From an uncultured Methylobacter sp. (GTDB taxonomy: Bacteria > Pseudomonadota > Gammaproteobacteria > Methylococcales > Methylomonadaceae), in the NCBI GenBank assembly GCA_903831545.1, contig CAIKYI010000631.1, positions 1 to 11,727 on the forward strand: 11,727 nucleotides of DNA, written 5' to 3'. This document shows positions 111 to 9,986 of the stretch, in pieces. Below the pieces are notes generated by a model. That model was not told the origin of the DNA. It ran no database searches and saw nothing but the letters and a program-made list of their open reading frames with translations. A program made the position numbers and the translations under genes. Within the stretch, counting starts at the first letter, position 1. Every line of letters starts with the position of its first letter.

Positions 111-128
111 TGTAACATTTTTGAGACA
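111..128. promoter_or_regulatory. Lone TGT-N12-ACA site
   Basis: The sequence TGTAACATTTTTGAGACA matches the sites at 4435-4452 and 9835-9852 (TGT, then ATTTTTG at the same offset, then ACA). The bases before it (GTTATTTTG, then AACTGTAACA) also resemble those before the distal site at 4601-4618. No sigma54 promoter lies within 110 bp on either side inside the window. If the layout matches the other loci, its promoter would lie beyond the left edge. Confidence 0.45.
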
Positions 129-877: not shown

Positions 878-1642
878 TTACTTAGGAACCACGGTGATTT
901 GATCAATTACAAAAGCACTGGTACTACCTATCCCATACATATCAAGATCAGTAATACCGTCTGGCGCTTGCACACCTACCCATTGAACCGTTCCAGCTGC
1001 CAGCGGTTGATTAAGCGTTACCTGACTCGCACCCAGACCCATAACAAACTGGATACTCTCAATGGACGGAGCAACGCTTTGCCCCGAATCAACATTCATA
1101 GCAAACTGGGTTACCGGTTGGTTAAAGTGCACATGCACGGGTCTGCCAACGGAATCGCCCGGTATCAGTCCTTTAGGTGAAAGAAAATTGGCGGCATATA
1201 CCTGCTTGATTCCTCTGTTTGAATCGTTTCTTAAGTACACCAGATTAATTGGCGTGGTGTAGCTATACAGTTGATTGGCGCCAAAAGAGACCAGACCAGC
1301 ACCGCAACTGATAGGCGTGCCATTAATGTCTGTTGTTACCATACAAGGCGAAATGCCATAAACACTCAATTGACTGCTAAGCACTGCCATCTCCTGCGCA
1401 GCAGTTAACTTAATTTTTTTCTTGTTCATAAAAAACAAGGCATAAGTTGATCCTCCCATCGGCTTGGCGGTGATAAGACTGGGCGCTATGTCGGGTGTTA
1501 AAATGGTACTTGTAGTTGGGGTTGAAGTAGTTAAGGTAGTTGAAGTAGATGAAGTCCCCGCTTTCGCTACAGCCAAGGCGGAAACGCCTGAAATACTAGC
1601 CGCCGCTAACAGCAATAGTCCGAAATGTTTTTTAGTGCTCAT
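878..1642 (-). CDS. Secreted protein, paralogue of the 251-aa protein at 8826-9581
   Basis: The 254-aa product has a Sec signal peptide: MSTKKH, a leucine/alanine-rich core at 7-24, and likely cleavage after AVA (residue 26). A Ser/Thr-rich linker follows (29-50), then a folded region. The C-terminal half (about 160-253, GRPVHVHFNQPVTQF then VDSGQ) aligns closely with residues 153-247 of the 251-aa protein encoded at 8826-9581. The two also share a cysteine pair with identical spacing (C100/C113 here, C74/C87 there), a likely disulfide. The domain ending (F-x-ID-x-I-x-VVP) recalls beta-sandwich domains of PEP-CTERM proteins, but no sorting tail is present. The function is unknown; an extracellular or surface role is inferred. 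The start is preceded by a purine-rich GAGAG about 10 bases upstream. The gene lies 176 bp after the 768-aa gene and is probably co-transcribed with it, although hairpins lie between them. Confidence 0.85.
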   Translation of the reverse strand: MSTKKHFGLLLLAAASISGVSALAVAKAGTSSTSTTLTTSTPTTSTILTPDIAPSLITAKPMGGSTYALFFMNKKKIKLTAAQEMAVLSSQLSVYGISPCMVTTDINGTPISCGAGLVSFGANQLYSYTTPINLVYLRNDSNRGIKQVYAANFLSPKGLIPGDSVGRPVHVHFNQPVTQFAMNVDSGQSVAPSIESIQFVMGLGASQVTLNQPLAAGTVQWVGVQAPDGITDLDMYGIGSTSAFVIDQITVVPK

Positions 1643-1818: not shown

Positions 1819-4125
1819 TTATTTAGCTAAAGTAACCCCAGCAGCCAATCCGCCAGACGTGGTCTTACATCTCATGGCGGCATTATTGATAGCTACCGGG
1901 GCCTTTGCTGTTGTCGCCAACTGGTAACCGCCGAGGCCATCAACTGCAGTTGATCCGATCAACGTAGTAGCCGTTGGAGCAGTTGCGGTACCTACCCAGC
2001 AGGTAGCAGTTAAGTTAGTCAGATTAGCTCCGAACCAGCTGGTTGTGCCGACGATATCCCACTTGTTTTGTGCGATGGTGTATTTTGCGCTGGTCACTCG
2101 AACGACTTCCGCTGCCGAAAAGTTGGTAATATCCACTCTTGCCAGGTTGGACGCCAGAGGCGGAGTGGAAAAGTTATTCACCCTGTAAGTGAAAAAATCT
2201 GCTCCACCCGATACTGCTGTCGCTGTTTTGGTGACATAAGTGATTTGGCCGGAAGCGAGCTTGGTTAGATTACCTTTGGTAGGTGCAGTCACAATGGTCA
2301 AACTGGTAACGGCAGGATTGATTTGATCCAGCGCATTGATAGAAGCCGGTTTATCATTACCCAAGATGGTCACCGTTTTGGTTTTTGCCGCTACAGTTCC
2401 CGCGTAGGTCGCCGCAAACTGATCCGCGACAGCCGTCGGCGCCGTTGGATTAAAGGACAGCGTCAGATTGCCGGTAGCTACGTTGGAAACCGGCGCATTG
2501 TTGGCTGCTTGTCTGACAAACTTAAAGCTGTCGGTACCGACAGCCGCCGTTGCATTGGCGGTAAAAGTCCAAACACTGCCAAGGAGGGCAATCGTTCCGT
2601 TTGCCGGTTGCTGAATAATCAACGCATCAGCCGGCAAAGCATCCGTTAGCGCTGTTGCTCCACCTGTACTTACAGTAAAGCCGGGAGCCGGAATAGCTGT
2701 TGCAACCGGTGGATTGAGCGGATTTTGCGGAGCACCGTTAATGCTTAACAAATGATCAGCATGAAAACCTGACTCCGTTGAAACCACCGAAATACTTTCA
2801 GGTGGCTCTATAGCAGCCGGCAATAATCCTGAAAAACAGACGCTAGCCGTATCAGTGATCGTAACGGGACATTGCGCCTTTGTCATTACGGTGCTTACTG
2901 CAGGCGGAGTTACAGGTGTATTAGGCTCTGCCCCAGTTAAACCCTCTACGACCAAACCTGGATTGGAAACCTCATCGGAGGAATGCGCCACAACGAGAAT
3001 TTGACGTGAAGCGGTGTCAAAACTCGCCTTACTGATTTCAACGCCATCTTTGAGCGCTGTTGATACACTATTCACCGGGTTACTGCTCAGGTTGGTGACA
3101 GTAATTTGCGGCGGAATTGCTTGCGTCGAAGGATACTCGATATGCCCATGATATTTACCGGACACTGTGCCACTTGGGTACATTTGCAGGCTCGGCATAC
3201 CCTCACCCGTGACGATTAATCTTTGATCAGGCGTTGACGTTGCCCAAACATCAACACCGTTGGTGCCAGCTTTACGGACTTTATAAGCCGAATCCACTTT
3301 CAACGCTTGAGCAATCGGCGCTGTCCATTTCTGACCGAGAACACTTCCCAAAGATTCCTCAATAAAATCGTGACCTAATCCATCCAGGTTAGAGCCAACC
3401 GGCCCCTGTATGCGAATCAAATTGGTGCCGAATGGACTGCCGGTGAAGGTATGTGGAACAGTAGGATCGCCGACAAACTCTTCTGCACCGGCAATCAGCG
3501 GAAGATCTGTGTCCCATTTAATAAAAGGACCTACCGGGCCTTCCAATGCCCCATCAAAGCCTGTTCCCATAGGTATATCGACCGTGAAGAAATTTGCTGC
3601 TTGTGAGCCAATCAAATTGGTTTTGGTGGTCGCCTGAACGTTTTCAAAGGTATGAACGCCGTAGGGATGCGTTACTACATAGGTACCACTTTTAGCGGGA
3701 TCGTTAAAGTTAAAGGTGATGCGAATCCGGGCAAACACAGTTTCATCGCCATGTTTGGGTGTCGGACCTGGCAGATATGAAGCTTCCAGAGCGCCCAGGT
3801 AACGATATTGAAAATCCGACCCTGTTGCTGTATTTTTAAACTCAATCAAACTGTAAAAAGCCTCGTCGCCAATATTACCTGCAAAGCCGGCGGGGTTGGC
3901 AGCAAGTGGAAAACAATAGTCAGTTGTTGAACGACATAAACCCAGCGCCAAACCTTCAGTGTCGCGATACCACGACGGAAAAGTAATAACTGCGTCAGAC
4001 GGACCATGATCCAGCAATTTTGCTGTAGCCATGCCGCTGGCCAGCACTGAACTGGCCAGGGCAAGTTGGATAGCTCTACGCAGAACGAGCTTACCCGAAA
4101 AGTTAGAAGTTAATTTTGTCTTCAT
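1819..4125 (-). CDS. Large secreted Ig-like protein (768 aa)
   Basis: The product has an N-terminal Sec signal (twin Arg at 16-17, hydrophobic 18-33, cleavage likely after ATA at 35). Residues 48-165 hold a segment with FPSWYRDTEGLALGLC, GDEAFYSLIEF, ARIRITFN and GTYVVTHPYGVHTFENV, a pattern I associate with uncharacterised secreted bacterial proteins. Residues 472-560 and 563-667 look like cadherin/Ig-like (Big_9 or VCBS type) modules; the second has the typical VTILGND and FFTYRV signatures. Residues 672-768 form a C-terminal segment related to that of the 773-aa protein (R-[VI]-[ST]-x-A start, W-x-[IV]-x-G, LxAT, LG/IG). There is no PEP-CTERM tail, LPXTG motif or lipobox. AATTGAGGTAATAAC directly before the ATG gives a good ribosome site. 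A sigma54 promoter with two upstream sites lies about 165 bp upstream. The 254-aa gene follows. A role as a surface or matrix protein is inferred; no enzymatic motif was seen. Confidence 0.9.
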   Translation of the reverse strand: MKTKLTSNFSGKLVLRRAIQLALASSVLASGMATAKLLDHGPSDAVITFPSWYRDTEGLALGLCRSTTDYCFPLAANPAGFAGNIGDEAFYSLIEFKNTATGSDFQYRYLGALEASYLPGPTPKHGDETVFARIRITFNFNDPAKSGTYVVTHPYGVHTFENVQATTKTNLIGSQAANFFTVDIPMGTGFDGALEGPVGPFIKWDTDLPLIAGAEEFVGDPTVPHTFTGSPFGTNLIRIQGPVGSNLDGLGHDFIEESLGSVLGQKWTAPIAQALKVDSAYKVRKAGTNGVDVWATSTPDQRLIVTGEGMPSLQMYPSGTVSGKYHGHIEYPSTQAIPPQITVTNLSSNPVNSVSTALKDGVEISKASFDTASRQILVVAHSSDEVSNPGLVVEGLTGAEPNTPVTPPAVSTVMTKAQCPVTITDTASVCFSGLLPAAIEPPESISVVSTESGFHADHLLSINGAPQNPLNPPVATAIPAPGFTVSTGGATALTDALPADALIIQQPANGTIALLGSVWTFTANATAAVGTDSFKFVRQAANNAPVSNVATGNLTLSFNPTAPTAVADQFAATYAGTVAAKTKTVTILGNDKPASINALDQINPAVTSLTIVTAPTKGNLTKLASGQITYVTKTATAVSGGADFFTYRVNNFSTPPLASNLARVDITNFSAAEVVRVTSAKYTIAQNKWDIVGTTSWFGANLTNLTATCWVGTATAPTATTLIGSTAVDGLGGYQLATTAKAPVAINNAAMRCKTTSGGLAAGVTLAK

Positions 4126-4195
4126 GTTATTACCTCAATTAAAAAATTTTACTATCAATAAAAGTAACTGGAATAAAATTTAAAATAATATTTAG

Positions 4196-4318
4196 TTACG
4201 TGTTTTTAGGTTTATTCTTAGCTTTATTCCAGACTTCGCCATGATCCTTTGGCTTTATCCAGCGAACTTCAGTAGCTGCTTTGACTAAAGCAATAACGAT
4301 GCCAAGATACAAAAACAC
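4196..4318 (-). CDS. Possible 40-aa leader ORF overlapping the sigma54 promoter
   Basis: A GTG-initiated frame encodes a short hydrophobic stretch (FLYLGIVIALVKAA) followed by a charged tail (RWIKPKDHGEVWNKAKN), which has protein-like composition. No ribosome binding site is evident before the GTG, and the frame contains the -24/-12 promoter core, so the sigma54 transcript would begin inside it. A chance reading frame is the more likely explanation; the paralogous locus has nothing similar. Confidence 0.18.
   Translation of the reverse strand: MFLYLGIVIALVKAATEVRWIKPKDHGEVWNKAKNKPKNT
4289..4305 (-). promoter_or_regulatory. Sigma54 (-24/-12) promoter of the 768-aa gene
   Basis: On the minus strand the sequence is TTGGCATCGTTATTGCT, against the RpoN consensus YTGGCACGRNNNTTGCW. 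The GG and GC dinucleotides are ten bases apart, as required. Transcription would start near 4278, giving a leader of about 150 bases. Two TGT-N12-ACA sites lie 89 and 144 bp behind the -12 element, the usual range for enhancer-binding proteins. The promoter at 9687-9703 agrees at 10 of 17 positions, including the TTATTGC block. Confidence 0.75.
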
Positions 4319-4379
4319 AGTATTTACAGGTGTTACAGAACTTTTAAGCTAAAATCGACCAGGCCATTTAAAGGGCCAG

Positions 4380-4452
4380 TGTAATATTTTTGATACACCA
4401 ATCCAGCCAAGTACCGAAAAGACTTGAATGTAGGTGTAATATTTTTGAGACA
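4380..4452. promoter_or_regulatory. Twin TGT-N12-ACA upstream sites of the 768-aa gene
   Basis: TGTAATATTTTTGATACA (4380-4397) and TGTAATATTTTTGAGACA (4435-4452) differ at one base and start 55 bp apart, roughly five helical turns. The first extends to GTGTA-N10-TACAC, a partial dyad typical of a dimeric regulator site. Their distance from the sigma54 promoter matches that of the pair at 9779-9852 to within 2 bp. They are probable binding sites for a sigma54 enhancer-binding protein of unknown identity. Confidence 0.7.
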
Positions 4453-4600
4453 AGCTTTAAAAATACCAGACCCGGAAGGAAGGAAATTTAAACCGGGCAA
4501 GACACAGTGGTTTACTGCATACCGCGCCACACGCGGTTTTAGCTTACAAAAAGACTATTGTGCCGCTTAGAAGTTGCGTTATTTTGGGTTTTTTTGTAAC

Positions 4601-4618
4601 TGTAACAAAAATGAGACA
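4601..4618 (-). promoter_or_regulatory. Distal TGT-N12-ACA site
   Basis: On the minus strand it reads TGTCTCATTTTTGTTACA, with the ATTTTTG core at the same offset as in the proximal pair but in opposite orientation. It starts 166 bp beyond the second proximal site. A comparable distal site is at 9969-9986. It could be a further enhancer site or an end of an ancestral mobile element. Confidence 0.45.
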
Positions 4619-4747
4619 TTAGCCGTTTTGGGATGAAGCAGCTTATTGATCCTAGAAAACGCAGTTGATCGTTTTTATTATGCTCACATCCTGTATGCTT
4701 GTAATTCTGACAGCCTCAAAGCTGATCAGCGTTTAGGTGAGGCATTT

Positions 4748-5761: not shown

Positions 5762-6367
5762 TTAAGCTTGAAGAATATCATTTCTACGTCGGGAGATACC
5801 CATAAAACCGGCAAGGGCTGAACCAAACAACCAAACAGAAGCAGGTACCGGCACAGCGGTCAAAACATCAAGACTGACACTCCAGTTGCCGTTCATGTTT
5901 AAATCAGCAAATGTTCTGGTAGGACTGGCCGGATGCCAGGAATCCAAATCCCAATTCGTCCAATGAGTCTGAAAACCATCTGGTTCTATATTCTCGGCTA
6001 TATAGTTTCCGTTAAAGGAAACCGTATAGAAATAATTTCCCTTAACCAGATTATCTATGGTCACAAAGGCATTAAAATCAACGGGAAAATTAATGTCATC
6101 ATTTTCAGCAATCAAATCACCATCAGCATTTCCGGCACTTTGATGACCATCCCCATAAAACAAAGTCAAGTAAGGATCTGCATCACTAGGACTTGCCCAC
6201 GAAGTAGTCGATAAGGTTAAGCTAGCGGCATCATTCAACAGGGTAAAATTCTGCCTGAAGACTTCACTATCATTAACGGCAGTTCCAGTATAGGTGGTCA
6301 AATCTGCATTTGCAGTGCCCATAAAACCCATTAAAGCAATGGCACCGCATGTAATTATTTTTTTCAT
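5762..6367 (-). CDS. VPxPA-type PEP-CTERM sorted exported protein
   Basis: The 201-aa precursor has a signal peptide with cleavage expected after ANA (residue 21). Residues about 34-135 (FTLLNDAASLTLSTTSW, DPYLTLFYGDG, GNYFYTVSFNGNY) resemble the DVUA0089-type beta-sandwich domain common in PEP-CTERM proteins. The tail at 172-201 has the complete tripartite sorting signal: VPVPAS, a hydrophobic helix (WLFGSALAGFMGI) and an SRRR basic cluster. By family knowledge (VPLPA-CTERM/PEP-CTERM) it would be cut and transferred by an exosortase, then exported with exopolysaccharide to the cell surface or matrix. The exosortase is not in this window. GGAGAATATAG before the ATG is a good ribosome site. 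It lies 125 bp after the 773-aa gene, behind a hairpin; no sigma54 match was found in that gap, so it may be a separate transcript. Confidence 0.88.
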   Translation of the reverse strand: MKKIITCGAIALMGFMGTANADLTTYTGTAVNDSEVFRQNFTLLNDAASLTLSTTSWASPSDADPYLTLFYGDGHQSAGNADGDLIAENDDINFPVDFNAFVTIDNLVKGNYFYTVSFNGNYIAENIEPDGFQTHWTNWDLDSWHPASPTRTFADLNMNGNWSVSLDVLTAVPVPASVWLFGSALAGFMGISRRRNDILQA

Positions 6368-6492: not shown

Positions 6493-8814
6493 CTACCGAA
6501 CTAATACCGCTATATTTTCAAGTACTTTACCGGTTGCACTGGAACGCAAACTAATAGGACTGGTACAGGCTGGACCAACGGGGTTCTGGAACAGCCAGGC
6601 ACCTTTCGCTACCGGTGCCGCACCGAGTTTACTGGCAGCCAAGTTTGCCGGCACAGTAGACGTAGCATACAACTGGATAGTGTTGCCGGTTAAAATGGTG
6701 CTACTACCTTGCACGCTCCATTGACCGGAAGTTGCCGAGACTTTTTTGCACTGCGCTTTTGAAATCCGGATTGTTTCGGTAATCACTACTGGTGGCGCGG
6801 TAACCGTTACCAACTGGGAACAGGTAGAACTTAGCCCGGCCTGATCGGTGGCTTTCCAGGTTACTGCTGTTGTTCCTGTCACAAGACTGGCGGGAGCGCC
6901 GGTTACGACAGCCGCACCTTGTGCATCAGTCGCTGTGGGTTGTGACAAGGCTTGGCCTTGAGTCAAAGCAACCGTCGCAGGACAACTGCCGAACACTGGC
7001 GCTACCGTATCGATTTTGATAGCCGCAGTATTGGCACTGGCCACACCACCGGCACTGGTAGCTGCGCAAGTATTAGCCGGATTTGTACCGTTGGTGGTTA
7101 TAGTCGCTGAAGGACAAGGAGTCGATGTGATTGCCGACTCATTATCAACCGCAGACCACGCGACTGAAACGGGACTGGTAAACCAGCCATTGGCCCCAAC
7201 TGTTCCAGTCAAAGTTGGTGTAATGACAGGTGGCGTCTGATCGGCAACCGTGACTACAAAACTACCGGAAGCGTTATTGCCGGCAGTATCTTTAGCCGAA
7301 CAATTCACCGTAGTTGCCCCAACAGCGAAAATTGCCCCGGAAGCTGGGAGACAACTTACCGCGCCACTCACACCCGACAACGTATCGCTTGCCGTCGGCA
7401 ACGCGTAAGTCACGCTAGCGCCATTCAGACTGGATGCCTGTTGAGTAAAATTAGCCGGAACATTCGCCAATACTGGCGCTACCGTATCCACTTTAATTGC
7501 GGGCGTCGTTACTGGAACTGCGGTACCGCCGGTGCTGGTTGCCACACAGGAAAAGGTCTGACCGGCGGTATCAGTTACCGTTGCATTAACACAGCCCACT
7601 TTGGAGGTAACAGCCGTTTCGGGATCAGTCACCGACCAAACCAGACTTGGCGCAGCCACATACCATCCTGTAACGCCAGGCGCAGCAGGTGTTAAAGTAT
7701 ACTTGATGACAGGCGGCGTGGCATCGGACACCAGTTTTTTAAGCAAAAATGCATGACGCTCGCCAGCAATGCCTGCACCGGTGAAGATACCCACACCGGT
7801 GATATATCTGCCATCATCACTGATAGCTTGCGCTTCAAGGAGTGTCCAGCCACTCAGTGGGTCAATTAAGGTGTTCAGATCTTTCAGTCCCGAGCCGCTT
7901 TGCCATAAAAAAGCTTTCTGGGCGGCATTGTTAAGCGTCGTGGAATTTCCGACTACTTCGCCCAAACTGCTAATGCCATGTGCTTCACTAAAAGTGCCGC
8001 CTAAAGTACCCAGATCGCTCATTGGTGGAACGGACGTAGACTGCCACAAAAAGGCATGTTGCGCATCCAGAGTGGTAGTGGCGCTACCGGCAACATCGCC
8101 CTGGGCATTAAGCCCATAAGCCGCACTGTGCGTGCCGCCCAAAGTGCCCAGATCTGTTTTGGCGCCATCAGCTGCCCATAACACTGCATGGGTAGCCTTG
8201 TTACCGGTTAACGAAGAAAAACCCGCAACCTGCCCTGCCGCGTTAATGGCAAGGCCCTGACTGTTACCGGTACCGTCCAGAGTGCCCAAATCGGTTATGG
8301 TGTTATCCGTTTGCCAGATGACCGCATGCTCAGTTGCGTCAGCCGTAGTTGAAAAGCCGGTAACTTGATCCTTATCGTTAATCGAAAAAGCTCTGCTATC
8401 ACCCGAGACAACAAGCGCATTTAGATCCTTTAACGCCGCCAGCGGGGGAACTGCACCACTATTCAATTGAAAGGCATGATAACCTGAATCACCGGTCAAG
8501 CTGGCAGAGCCAACCATATTGCCCAGGTTATTGATACTGTAAGCCTGACTGTATATGCCGCCAAGCGTTCCCAGATCTTGTGGCGAGGTCAATCCATCAC
8601 CATTAATGGCATGTTCCGAGGAATCACCAGGCAGATATGAAAAACCGCTGACCAGACCACTGTTATTGACGCCCAGACCCACGCTGTAAATACCCCCCAG
8701 ACTACCCAGATCAACAACCGAATATTGCGGAGCCGCATGGGCAGCGGCAAAAGGCAAGCAGGCGCCAAGACAAACCGTCCATAACAAATTATTGTGTTTT
8801 AGTTTTGTTTTCAT
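6493..8814 (-). CDS. Secreted HAF-repeat / Ig-like / HYR protein (773 aa)
   Basis: After a signal peptide (cleavage after AHA, residue 27), residues 31-359 contain seven HAF-type repeats of 40-50 residues, with motifs DLGTLGG, INxxGxVxG and HAFLW; this matches the probable extracellular HAF repeat family. Residues 366-448 and 527-606 are Ig-like modules (TPPVI, GW[YF], W[SA]V.D.E.A, [IV]D.VAPV), each followed by an HYR-like module (449-525 and 607-673; DTAGN, VTVNC, TDQAGLSS), so the middle is a tandem duplication of about 155 residues. Residues 679-773 form a C-terminal segment related to that of the 768-aa protein. There is no sorting tail or lipobox. The start has an AAGGAAAC ribosome site overlapping the stop codon of the preceding gene, with only 11 bp between the genes, so the two are translated from one operon. 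An extracellular or surface structural role is inferred. Confidence 0.9.
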   Translation of the reverse strand: MKTKLKHNNLLWTVCLGACLPFAAAHAAPQYSVVDLGSLGGIYSVGLGVNNSGLVSGFSYLPGDSSEHAINGDGLTSPQDLGTLGGIYSQAYSINNLGNMVGSASLTGDSGYHAFQLNSGAVPPLAALKDLNALVVSGDSRAFSINDKDQVTGFSTTADATEHAVIWQTDNTITDLGTLDGTGNSQGLAINAAGQVAGFSSLTGNKATHAVLWAADGAKTDLGTLGGTHSAAYGLNAQGDVAGSATTTLDAQHAFLWQSTSVPPMSDLGTLGGTFSEAHGISSLGEVVGNSTTLNNAAQKAFLWQSGSGLKDLNTLIDPLSGWTLLEAQAISDDGRYITGVGIFTGAGIAGERHAFLLKKLVSDATPPVIKYTLTPAAPGVTGWYVAAPSLVWSVTDPETAVTSKVGCVNATVTDTAGQTFSCVATSTGGTAVPVTTPAIKVDTVAPVLANVPANFTQQASSLNGASVTYALPTASDTLSGVSGAVSCLPASGAIFAVGATTVNCSAKDTAGNNASGSFVVTVADQTPPVITPTLTGTVGANGWFTSPVSVAWSAVDNESAITSTPCPSATITTNGTNPANTCAATSAGGVASANTAAIKIDTVAPVFGSCPATVALTQGQALSQPTATDAQGAAVVTGAPASLVTGTTAVTWKATDQAGLSSTCSQLVTVTAPPVVITETIRISKAQCKKVSATSGQWSVQGSSTILTGNTIQLYATSTVPANLAASKLGAAPVAKGAWLFQNPVGPACTSPISLRSSATGKVLENIAVLVR

Positions 8815-8825
8815 GATTAGTTTCC

Positions 8826-9581
8826 TTAGAACTTGGCCAGTGGCACGAAAGAGAAGTGATCGGCAATCCAGCTGCGTGAATTGGATTGGGTATTGACATC
8901 TCCTGAAGCAATGATTGAGACATCGGTAAATCCGGCGCTATCTTCGACACCGACAAAAGTGGCCGCCCCGGCTGGCAAAGACTGTATCGGAGTGGTTTGA
9001 CGATTAACGATAAATTGAATGCCGCTTATCGAAGCCGCATCAACCTGCCCCGAATCCACCAGCATACCGAATTGCGCCACCCGTTGATTGAAATGAATAT
9101 TCACCACCCGTCCGGTTGCGTCGCCCGAATTTGCAACCCCAACCGTTCCAACACGAAAATTAGCCCCTTTACTTGTCAGAATTAATTTATTTAAAGGATC
9201 CGATTTTTTTGGATCTAACCCCACAACTTCAGTCTTACTTAAAGGAAAAGCAGGAATAATTGAAGCACCGTTGTAAGTGTAAAAATCGGCGTTACCAAAC
9301 TGCATTTCGCCTTTATCGCCGCATTTAACGGCAGTAATATTGGAATCGCCTGATACCCAACAAGCCGTTAATTTAGGTAACGCAGTACTTGCATTCAATT
9401 CACTTTGCACCATATTGCGCACCGTCAACTGTGTAACACCTGCTGGCAGCGTTTGTACTGTAAAGAAAGAATAAGTTGTTGCGGGACTGTCCATTGCCAA
9501 AATAGCCTTGGGTGCCGCGTCAGCTGTTGTTGCAAGACCTGCGCAAACAAGGGCGAGTCCGGTAAGTTTTAGTGTTTTCAT
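8826..9581 (-). CDS. Secreted protein, paralogue of the 254-aa protein at 878-1642
   Basis: The 251-aa product has a classic signal peptide (MKTLKLTGLALVCAGLATTA, cleavage after ADA at 22). Residues 153-247 (GRVVNIHFNQRVAQF, LVDSGQ, SGIQFIVN, FVGVEDSAGFTDVSI, IADHFSFVP) align closely with residues 162-253 of the 254-aa protein. Upstream, C74 and C87 keep the same spacing as C100 and C113 of the paralogue, and FGNADFYTY matches FGANQLYSY. It lacks the paralogue's Ser/Thr-rich linker. The function is unknown; a beta-sandwich surface domain is inferred. It is the first gene of an operon with the 773-aa gene and has a sigma54 promoter with upstream sites about 105 bp before the start. AGGA lies 9 bases before the ATG. 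Confidence 0.87.
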   Translation of the reverse strand: MKTLKLTGLALVCAGLATTADAAPKAILAMDSPATTYSFFTVQTLPAGVTQLTVRNMVQSELNASTALPKLTACWVSGDSNITAVKCGDKGEMQFGNADFYTYNGASIIPAFPLSKTEVVGLDPKKSDPLNKLILTSKGANFRVGTVGVANSGDATGRVVNIHFNQRVAQFGMLVDSGQVDAASISGIQFIVNRQTTPIQSLPAGAATFVGVEDSAGFTDVSIIASGDVNTQSNSRSWIADHFSFVPLAKF

Positions 9582-9686: not shown

Positions 9687-9703
9687 TGCAATAAACGAAC
9701 CAT
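9687..9703 (-). promoter_or_regulatory. Sigma54 (-24/-12) promoter of the 251-aa/773-aa operon
   Basis: The minus strand reads ATGGTTCGTTTATTGCA, with GG and GC ten bases apart and a full TTGCA at -12. The -24 half is less perfect (TGGTTCG against TGGCACG). Transcription would start near 9676, about 95 bases before the ATG. The sites behind it lie 90 and 146 bp from the -12 element, matching the other locus. Confidence 0.7.
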
Positions 9704-9727
9704 AATTATTATCTATATGTTTATAAA

Positions 9728-9740
9728 CAATAAATTGAAT
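9728..9740. promoter_or_regulatory. Possible IHF site between promoter and upstream sites
   Basis: CAATAAATTGAAT matches the reverse-complement IHF consensus YAANNNNTTGATW with one mismatch. It lies in AT-rich DNA between the sigma54 promoter and its enhancer-like sites, where IHF commonly bends DNA. No equivalent match was found at the 4289-4452 locus, so support is modest. Confidence 0.35.
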
Positions 9741-9778
9741 ATTACTCGCACAGCAACCGCCAGCGAAAAACCCGCAGC

Positions 9779-9852
9779 TGTAATATTTACGATACACAAG
9801 ACTAAGCAAGCCTCCGAAACTCGGGACATGTGAGTGTAATATTTTTGATACA
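9779..9852. promoter_or_regulatory. Twin TGT-N12-ACA upstream sites of the 251-aa/773-aa operon
   Basis: TGTAATATTTACGATACA (9779-9796) and TGTAATATTTTTGATACA (9835-9852) start 56 bp apart. The second is identical to the site at 4380-4397. They are probable sites for the same enhancer-binding protein. Beyond the second site, GGAAGGAAG and CCGGG occur in the same order as at 4473-4499, showing that homology extends past the sites. Confidence 0.7.
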
Positions 9853-9968
9853 CCGCTAAACGGGAAGGAAGTGACCGGGACATGTTATGCACAGACAATA
9901 GAGTGCGTAACCATAGGGAATGCGGGGTTGACTACCGTGTTATGGCGTTTAAATGTTTTAACGGGGAC

Positions 9969-9986
9969 TGTAACAAAATCAATACA
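9969..9986 (-). promoter_or_regulatory. Distal TGT-N12-ACA site
   Basis: The minus strand reads TGTATTGATTTTGTTACA, keeping TGT, a T-run and GTTACA as in the distal site at 4601-4618. It starts 134 bp beyond the second proximal site (166 bp at the other locus). It is weaker than the proximal pair. Confidence 0.35.

Follow-up and report, generated by a model that had tools for sequence, protein, structure and literature searches.

Promoters read by sigma54 (RpoN) carry a GG at -24 and a GC at -12 with ten bases between them (GG-N10-GC), in a TGGCAC-N5-TTGC-like context, and sigma54 activators are generally understood to reach them by DNA looping. One paper reportedly concerns an RpoN-dependent PEP-CTERM gene, and another is said to concern sigma54 and the cell exterior. 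In the PrsK/PrsR system (Haft et al. 2006), as far as the excerpted account goes, genes for exported proteins with long leaders stand behind sigma54 promoters (motif 2) that are preceded by a 17-nt motif 1, which ends in TTTACA, is sometimes repeated and lies at a spacer of 32-92; the activator, a response regulator with a partner kinase, was assigned by the phylogenetic profile of the site (PMC1569441). TyrR boxes are given in an excerpt of another paper as TGTAAA-N6-TTTACA, 18 bp long with the G-N14-C arrangement, at promoters that look sigma70-like and belong to aromatic metabolism (PMC4374768). VpsR reportedly does not depend on RpoN, and BerB of Burkholderia cenocepacia, an enhancer-binding protein with reported c-di-GMP binding, acts with RpoN and controls berA and exopolysaccharide, according to the portion of text available (PMC5552954).

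The control layout described here is real and conserved, and has the architecture of a classical sigma54 promoter with enhancers in tandem. Its boxes and promoter with their spacing and conservation, as well as the co-occurrence and gene neighbourhood described below, were all read from sequence. Among the matches listed in open-licence PMC, there was no description of this box, of the activator subfamily or of the gene set, and none of sigma54 control of exported proteins in these methanotrophs.

Control regions and genes in the window

The window (the whole stretch of DNA that was analysed, 11,727 nucleotides) is the entire contig C631 of a draft genome with 805 contigs and 72.7% completeness, referred to below as the own genome (G000). 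Both of its exported-protein operons are preceded by a minus-strand sigma54 (-24/-12) promoter and two near-palindromic 18-bp boxes, TGTAAY-N6-RWTACA, with an inter-box distance of 55-56 bp and the nearer box 76-77 bp from the TGG element (Table 1). With at most three mismatches allowed, the pattern TGTAAYATTTTTGAKACA has 6 matches in the window; 0.06 would be expected, and none of 200 shuffles reached 6. Counterparts of the promoters of operons 2 and 1 were located at the equivalent places in G004 (TGGCGCATTTTTTGC) and G017 (TGGCATTGTTTTTGC), respectively. The earlier note had described a GG-N10-GC promoter and two sites at each locus; measured between lowest coordinates, the distances are 90 and 145 bp for operon 1 and 91 and 147 bp for operon 2, in agreement with its values (89/144 and 90/146) apart from one base of definition, and the site that it gave as identical between the loci is so, at 4380 and 9835. 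A GGAAGGAAG...CCGGG block, also claimed for both loci, is present at 4471-4497 and 9861-9879, but is not a conserved part of the layout: it occurs in 2 of 19 promoters tested, both in the window, and the block at 9861-9879 was dropped as a component of the system.

Table 1. Positions of genes, promoters and boxes in the window
Feature	Positions	Strand	Sequence	Remark
Isolated perfect box	111..128	.		Near left contig end
Operon 1 gene 2	878..1642	-		254-aa exported protein
Operon 1 gene 1	1819..4125	-		768-aa exported protein
Operon 1 sigma54 -24/-12 promoter	4290..4304	-	TGGCATCGTTATTGC	9/11 consensus positions
Operon 1 proximal box	4380..4397	.	TGTAATATTTTTGATACA	Pattern match, putative activator site
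Operon 1 distal box	4435..4452	.	TGTAATATTTTTGAGACA	55 bp from proximal box; putative activator site
Operon 1 weak third box	4601..4618	.		221 bp from proximal box
Operon 2 gene 3 (probable)	5762..6367	-		201-aa protein with PEP-CTERM/VPLPA-like sorting tail
Operon 2 gene 2	6493..8814	-		773-aa exported protein; HAF repeats and HYR domain
Operon 2 gene 1	8826..9581	-		251-aa exported protein; paralogue of 878-1642
Operon 2 sigma54 -24/-12 promoter	9688..9702	-	TGGTTCGTTTATTGC	9/11 consensus positions
Operon 2 proximal box	9779..9796	.	TGTAATATTTACGATACA	Pattern match, putative activator site
Operon 2 distal box	9835..9852	.	TGTAATATTTTTGATACA	56 bp from proximal box; putative activator site
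Operon 2 weak third box	9969..9986	.	TGTAACAAAATCAATACA	190 bp from proximal box

Many database relatives of the 768-aa protein are named Ig-like-domain protein. The product of 8826-9581 is 72% identical to that of a boxed gene in G004 and 55% identical to a protein of Methylobacter psychrophilus; the gene at 5762-6367 is, by gene order, probably the third of operon 2. The coding regions directly behind the two promoters had been called unrelated, which is right for the first genes; the 251-aa protein (first in operon 2) and the 254-aa protein (second in operon 1) are nevertheless 32% identical (E 8e-24), a relation that the earlier note had missed.

The isolated box at 111-128, like the weak third boxes absent from the earlier note, may be the remnant of a promoter cut by the contig end; it has a flank similar to that of the third operon-1 box. 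An apparent repeat, RCAACCCGA, gave 11 matches against 5.0 expected, a number reached by 2 of 200 shuffles. At the Rfam gathering threshold no RNA element was matched in the window, and a plasmid-borne origin was set aside, 4126-4640 having no match among plasmids in a distant-mode search.

Recurrence, spacing and drift of boxed promoters

The own genome was scanned for two TGT-N12-ACA sites at 55 bp, which gave three exact places (operon 1, C194 and C139); with one mismatch, 8 further places were obtained against 7 control places. A single-site scan with at most three mismatches returned 27 matches against 15 with the reversed control, and lone 3-mismatch sites were not used because of this noise. 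On C194 the pair precedes a gene for a 652-aa multicopper oxidase (closest in sequence, among solved structures, to bilirubin oxidases, with CotA and others ranking lower), followed by one for a SCO1/SenC protein, and on C139 the boxed gene encodes an HDOD-domain protein. Both have their sigma54 site at 74-75 bp from the proximal box. In total, the layout is present at four own-genome promoters (operons 1 and 2, oxidase and HDOD). A block downstream of the sigma54 site, AAAGGTTCA, was seen to be kept in 5/5 aligned oxidase leaders (promoter L036:4574 and orthologues), and the stretch CCCATATAATCAGG between the boxes is common to all three HDOD/peptide promoters L037, L069 and L073; the last of these belongs to the G004 gene for a 74-aa exported peptide (L073:383-607 (+)), which has three boxes 55-56 bp apart.

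Within a set of 151 genomes (the own genome and 150 relatives), pairs with a gap of 35-40 are distributed sporadically over 7: seven places in G004, four in G000, two each in G017 and G082, and one each in G023, G060 and G065, of which one of the two in G082 and the single G065 place are doubtful. When the GTDB species collection was searched with a stricter pair pattern, 12 stretches were obtained: six in G004 (uncultured Methylobacter), two in ZH-Oct18-35 (G017), and single ones in Methylobacter psychrophilus Z-0021 (G060), Methylococcaceae WB-IL-06 (G023), a MAG of Crenothrix polyspora (L164) and a contig that bears the label Legionella (L168), perhaps through a binning error. In this last stretch (L168:5461-7579) the pair stands ahead of a cytochrome c peroxidase-like gene, named by eye.

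Spacing was scanned in ten genomes, namely six pair-bearing ones (G065 left out) and four others with the activator subfamily described below. Gaps of 35-40 gave 17 places, all at 36-38, with 0 matches to the reversed pattern; gaps of 5-34 gave 0 places and gaps of 41-70 gave 2 (G062 C362 and G023 C5). On G062 C362 the boxed promoter precedes the operon-1 homologue, which is followed by 244-aa and HAF genes; the promoter lies 90 bp from the start of the proximal box, and the distal box is at 79 bp; at the G023 C5 promoter the successive box distances are 84 and 73 bp. Because of these distal boxes at 79 and 84 bp, the promoter-to-box distance is the firmer constraint, and only some members of the group adhere strictly to the 55-bp spacing. 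The G023 oxidase promoter and a second nearby promoter have one box each, with a sigma54 site at the usual distance.

Twenty-one promoters from 8 genomes or records were tabled (23 rows, two of them reverse readings), consisting of the pair places minus the doubtful ones of G065 and G082, plus the two single-box G023 promoters and a second L164 pair; the later-found promoters on G062 C362 and G023 C5 lie outside this table. A GG-N10-GC site with at least 8/11 consensus positions was found at 73-78 bp (box end to TGG) in 17 of the 21, against a background of 6 of 16,059 positions. Such a site is absent within 20-160 bp at G023 C12 and at Crenothrix promoter 1 (nearest good site at about 170 bp), is weak (7/11) at the G082 promoter, and lies 95 bp from the box in L168. 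A weaker third box (score at least 11) was present 190-285 bp from the proximal box at 9/21 promoters. At the M. psychrophilus homologue of operon 1 the boxes depart from the 55-bp spacing, and the best promoter match is 350 bp away from them. Over 28 boxes T8 and T10 are invariant, as are T1-A5 and A16-A18, though these are mostly demanded by the search patterns, which required TGTAA and ACA and thereby built in the invariance of these bases and part of the spacing agreement.

Drift was assessed in those 14 of the 21 tabled promoters that combine a strong pair (54-56 bp) with a promoter at the usual offset, leaving out G004 C196, the two single-box G023 promoters, G023 C12, G082, Crenothrix 1 and L168. 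Between orthologous promoters (9 pairs, 6 of which come from the oxidase promoter), mean identity was 0.87 and 0.89 for the boxes, 0.73 for the sigma54 site, 0.48 for the inter-box spacer, 0.40 for the box-to-promoter spacer and 0.33 for the upstream flank; between non-orthologous ones (82 pairs) the corresponding values were 0.88/0.88, 0.68, 0.36, 0.36 and 0.27, and shuffled inter-box spacers gave 0.29. Spacer lengths between orthologous promoters differ by 0-2 bases, and the HDOD orthologous pair is an exception in its inter-box spacer identity (0.78). Since most of the spacers have changed in sequence and the boxes, promoter and distances have been retained, the constraint is functional, which was one of two explanations offered in the earlier note. 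The pattern for which it proposed a test, spacing kept while neighbouring bases drift, was borne out for boxes, promoter, distances and most spacers, but not for the distal spacing of G062 and G023.

These data bear on two readings in which the spacing or the boxes would have no function. If the control region of operon 2 were a recent copy of the first with an inherited, functionless spacing, the common contig, the identical box, the shared GGAAGGAAG block and the paralogous 251/254-aa genes would all be expected; outside boxes and promoter, however, the two regions are alike only at 0.43 (inter-box) and 0.37 (box-to-promoter), near the non-orthologous means, and the operon-2 layout is already present in G004 and that of operon 1 in G017, with spacers drifted and distances kept, which makes this reading highly improbable. 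A copied control region may be the origin of the operon 2 promoter, but copying leaves the persistence of the distances unexplained. Several near-identical copies of the box in one genome could also suggest a dispersed, non-regulatory intergenic repeat; to this reading we assign practically no probability, given the fixed offset to a sigma54 site in 17 of 21 cases, the near-palindromic form, the tandem placement at a fixed distance, the drop of similarity outside the box and the retention of boxes at orthologous places.

A candidate activator

The activator of the boxes is most likely a VpsR-domain enhancer-binding subfamily, as judged by co-occurrence and neighbourhood, and its identity is the weakest link of the proposal. 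On contig C259 of the own genome two VpsR-domain sigma54 activators, the short form being of 468 aa, flank a second HDOD gene; both have Pfam domains PF00158, PF25601 and PF02954 (AAA+ with Fis-type HTH architecture) and match the VpsR domain PF20161 at 53.0 and 40.9 bits (cut-off, 23.7). The members in G060 and G082 are missed by PF20161 and detected by model A1, which was made from the N-terminal part of the activators (8 rows; subfamily call at 190 bits or more). This level was reached in 9/151 genomes (G000, G004, G023, G025, G039, G060, G062, G069 and G082), with 21 of slightly more candidates scored in many genomes; 11 further genomes at 102-133 bits were not counted. The subfamily is present in 5/7 pair-bearing genomes against 4/144 others (Fisher p 4e-6, a value that ignores relatedness, in a co-occurrence that is partly circular because A1 was built partly from the box-adjacent activators of G004 and G082), and G062 becomes a sixth activator genome with boxes if the wider-gap scan is counted. 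The activator was not found in G017 (two pairs; assembly 70% complete) or in G065 (one poor pair), and G039 has an intact activator and no pair, with no box scoring at least 13 in 15 kb around the activator. Box pair scans of G025 and G069 found none; the activator genes of these drafts (L184:6467-7892 and L182:1423-2855) are each split over two frames, which may be sequencing error. The activator genes of the own genome show sigma54-like sites without a box pair. In a class-wide sample of 274 genomes the subfamily was found in G000 only, and two genomes of one other family reached 165 bits.

The same distribution was followed gene by gene. Oxidase orthologues with at least 73% identity numbered 11, own included, and are boxed in G000, G004, G017, G060 and G023 (one strong box); the oxidase upstream regions of G089, G010, G019, G050 and G064 contain no box scoring 11 or more, and that of G008 cannot be judged, since only about 134 bases separate the gene start from the end of the contig. 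Without G008, activator-bearing genomes hold 4/5 boxed against 0/5 unboxed orthologues (two-sided p about 0.05); a two-by-two p of 0.015, for which G008 had been counted as box-less, was set aside. The 768-aa protein has a match in 13/151 genomes, and 11 of 19 matches were scanned upstream, partial ones being omitted: homologues are boxed in G000, G017, G062 and G023 (a second G023 copy has a weak box only), boxes are displaced in G060, and no boxes were found upstream of those of G089 (two copies), G126, G143 and G055. The activator subfamily is absent from the genomes with unboxed 768-aa homologues.

Activator genes also adjoin boxed genes. In M. psychrophilus Z-0021 a gene for a 465-aa activator lies directly upstream of genes for 790-aa, 252-aa and HAF-repeat proteins, which bring the homologues of both window operons together in a single row; some 13 kb further along comes the boxed oxidase operon. 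The Crenothrix polyspora MAG (L164:1680-5489) has a box pair between two same-strand activator genes; its sigma54 site is 75 bp away from the proximal box, and the next activator gene begins about 400 bp downstream; a box pair and sigma54 site ahead of an activator gene suggest that the Crenothrix activator is autoregulated. The activator gene is convergent with the boxed gene for the 74-aa exported peptide in G004, and with boxed genes for 93-aa and 1666-aa exported proteins (weak sigma54 site) in G082. The second HDOD gene on the activator contigs (L038:6099-7163 (+), site 6006; L185:718-1818 (-), site 1875) has a good sigma54 site and no box, and is perhaps under another activator.

In 12 aligned full-length members the HTH stretch GISRVSLYRL is kept, with a single change in two (G039 and G023b), and the loop GxFTGA is present in 10/10 non-Crenothrix members, the two Crenothrix ones having GAYTG[AS]. 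The activator may be controlled by phosphorylation, as the presumed phosphorylatable receiver position, located by eye, is D in 9/12 members (G or E in 3/12). An AlphaFold model of a Crenothrix activator (mean pLDDT 77, pTM 0.55, 32 sequences) matches structures of NtrC1, NtrX, VpsR and FleQ, with VpsR 7v2b and FleQ 8p53 among the best 20 Foldseek matches. Rmsd is 13-25 A for full-length matches, because the domain arrangement differs, and 1.5-2.9 A with few exceptions for AAA+-only rows; the VIA-align rows cover mainly the AAA+ part, and families missing from them were given no weight. A long form (L038:3526-5271 (-); L092:163-1932 (-); P0023, P0024 and P0025), which occurs in the own genome, G004 and database proteins, has a hydrophobic 17-residue stretch after the HTH (in the two genomic ones, hydropathy averages about 2.2 to 2.3), continues for about 90 residues beyond it, and may be membrane-tethered.

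Two other assignments of the boxes were weighed against the VpsR-type activator. The boxes would be PEP-CTERM boxes and the activator PrsR if the shared architecture (motif 1, sometimes repeated, and sigma54 motif 2, in the excerpt of PMC1569441) and the PEP-CTERM-like tail at 5762-6367 were decisive, but the phylogenetic profile disfavours PrsR. It scores over cut-off in 59/151 genomes but in only 2/7 pair-bearing ones (p 0.7), and in none of G000, G004 (99% complete, 7 pairs) and G017, as scored with TIGR02915 for 10/63 first-look candidates in G004 and 79/79 in G000, where the best score was 377.9 bits against a cut-off of 502.6 in a genome 72.7% complete. The boxes are also one nucleotide longer than the published motif 1, which was compared from its text, the logo not being visible, and their promoter-side ends (n=28) are ATTACA in 24, GTTACA in 2, TTTACA in 1 and CTTACA in 1; among the minority of boxed-promoter genes scanned, a PEP-CTERM-like tail was found only in the third gene of operon 2. 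PrsR is thus a very unlikely activator. Another sigma54 activator of the genome, for instance a TyrR/PhhR-like or a PAS-domain one, might instead bind the boxes, the VpsR-type co-occurrence then being hitch-hiking in a mobile gene set: the box resembles the TyrR box (PMC4374768, excerpt), the own genome has 13 sigma54-activator matches above 200 bits, and boxes and activator, both sporadic, could travel together. A widespread activator would, however, leave unexplained both the restriction of pairs to 7/151 genomes and the box pair upstream of the Crenothrix activator gene, and we consider this reading unlikely, though less so than PrsR.

Proposed regulon and comparison with known systems

The boxes probably define, with good confidence on our part, a sigma54-dependent regulon of exported proteins, including a copper oxidase, that is switched on by a VpsR-type activator at paired boxes. 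In the mechanism that we infer, 9687-9986 would be the control region of a sigma54 (RpoN)-dependent exported-protein operon; activator dimers would occupy the pair of 18-bp palindromic boxes, whose centres fall, on conventional numbering, at about 110 and 165 bp ahead of the transcription start, and DNA looping would bring the assembled AAA+ ring to the sigma54-RNA polymerase waiting at the -24/-12 promoter, which the ring would open at the expense of ATP. The same boxes would control operon 1, the multicopper oxidase/SCO1 operon and the HDOD-domain gene; by these shared boxes at four own-genome promoters the genes would form one regulon, and their common function may be to build a surface layer that contains a copper oxidase. 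That c-di-GMP controls the activator is guessed from the analogy with VpsR, FleQ and BerB. A wider picture is doubtful though conceivable: a lineage-restricted, sigma54-dependent VpsR branch, perhaps gated by c-di-GMP, might be a master switch of the freshwater-methanotroph surface (multicopper oxidase and copper chaperones, very large repeat proteins, small exported peptides and an HDOD protein), its longer paralogue being a membrane-tethered sensor of the periplasm.

The proposal offers a testable assignment of activator, box and targets in methanotrophs, including a named strain, Methylobacter psychrophilus Z-0021, and would tie together proteins of unknown function (multicopper oxidase, Ig-like and HAF-repeat proteins). 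Paired enhancers kept at narrow spacing in many natural promoters also provide material on the assembly of sigma54 activators on DNA.

Compared with PrsK/PrsR, as excerpted in PMC1569441, the regulon proposed here has in common the sigma54 promoters, the upstream, sometimes repeated motif, the exported products and the assignment of the activator by phylogenetic profile; it differs in its 18-nt near-palindrome, in the narrow spacing of pair and promoter, and in an activator of another subfamily in place of a response regulator with a partner kinase. TyrR boxes resemble the boxes here in their length of 18 bp; with respect to their G-N14-C arrangement, G2 and C17 are 14 bases apart in 28/28 boxes here, but both bases were demanded by the searches. 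The arms here are TGTAAY and mostly GATACA, the promoters are of the sigma54 type, and the candidate has a VpsR-type N-terminus. VpsR (Vibrio) and FleQ (Pseudomonas) have the same combination of a receiver-like N-terminal domain, AAA+ and Fis-type HTH, but, whereas VpsR reportedly acts without RpoN, the proteins described here keep a GAFTGA-type loop and have sigma54 promoters as presumed targets. BerB, likened here by description only (PMC5552954, in part), resembles the candidate as an enhancer-binding protein acting with RpoN, and differs in its targets, berA and exopolysaccharide.
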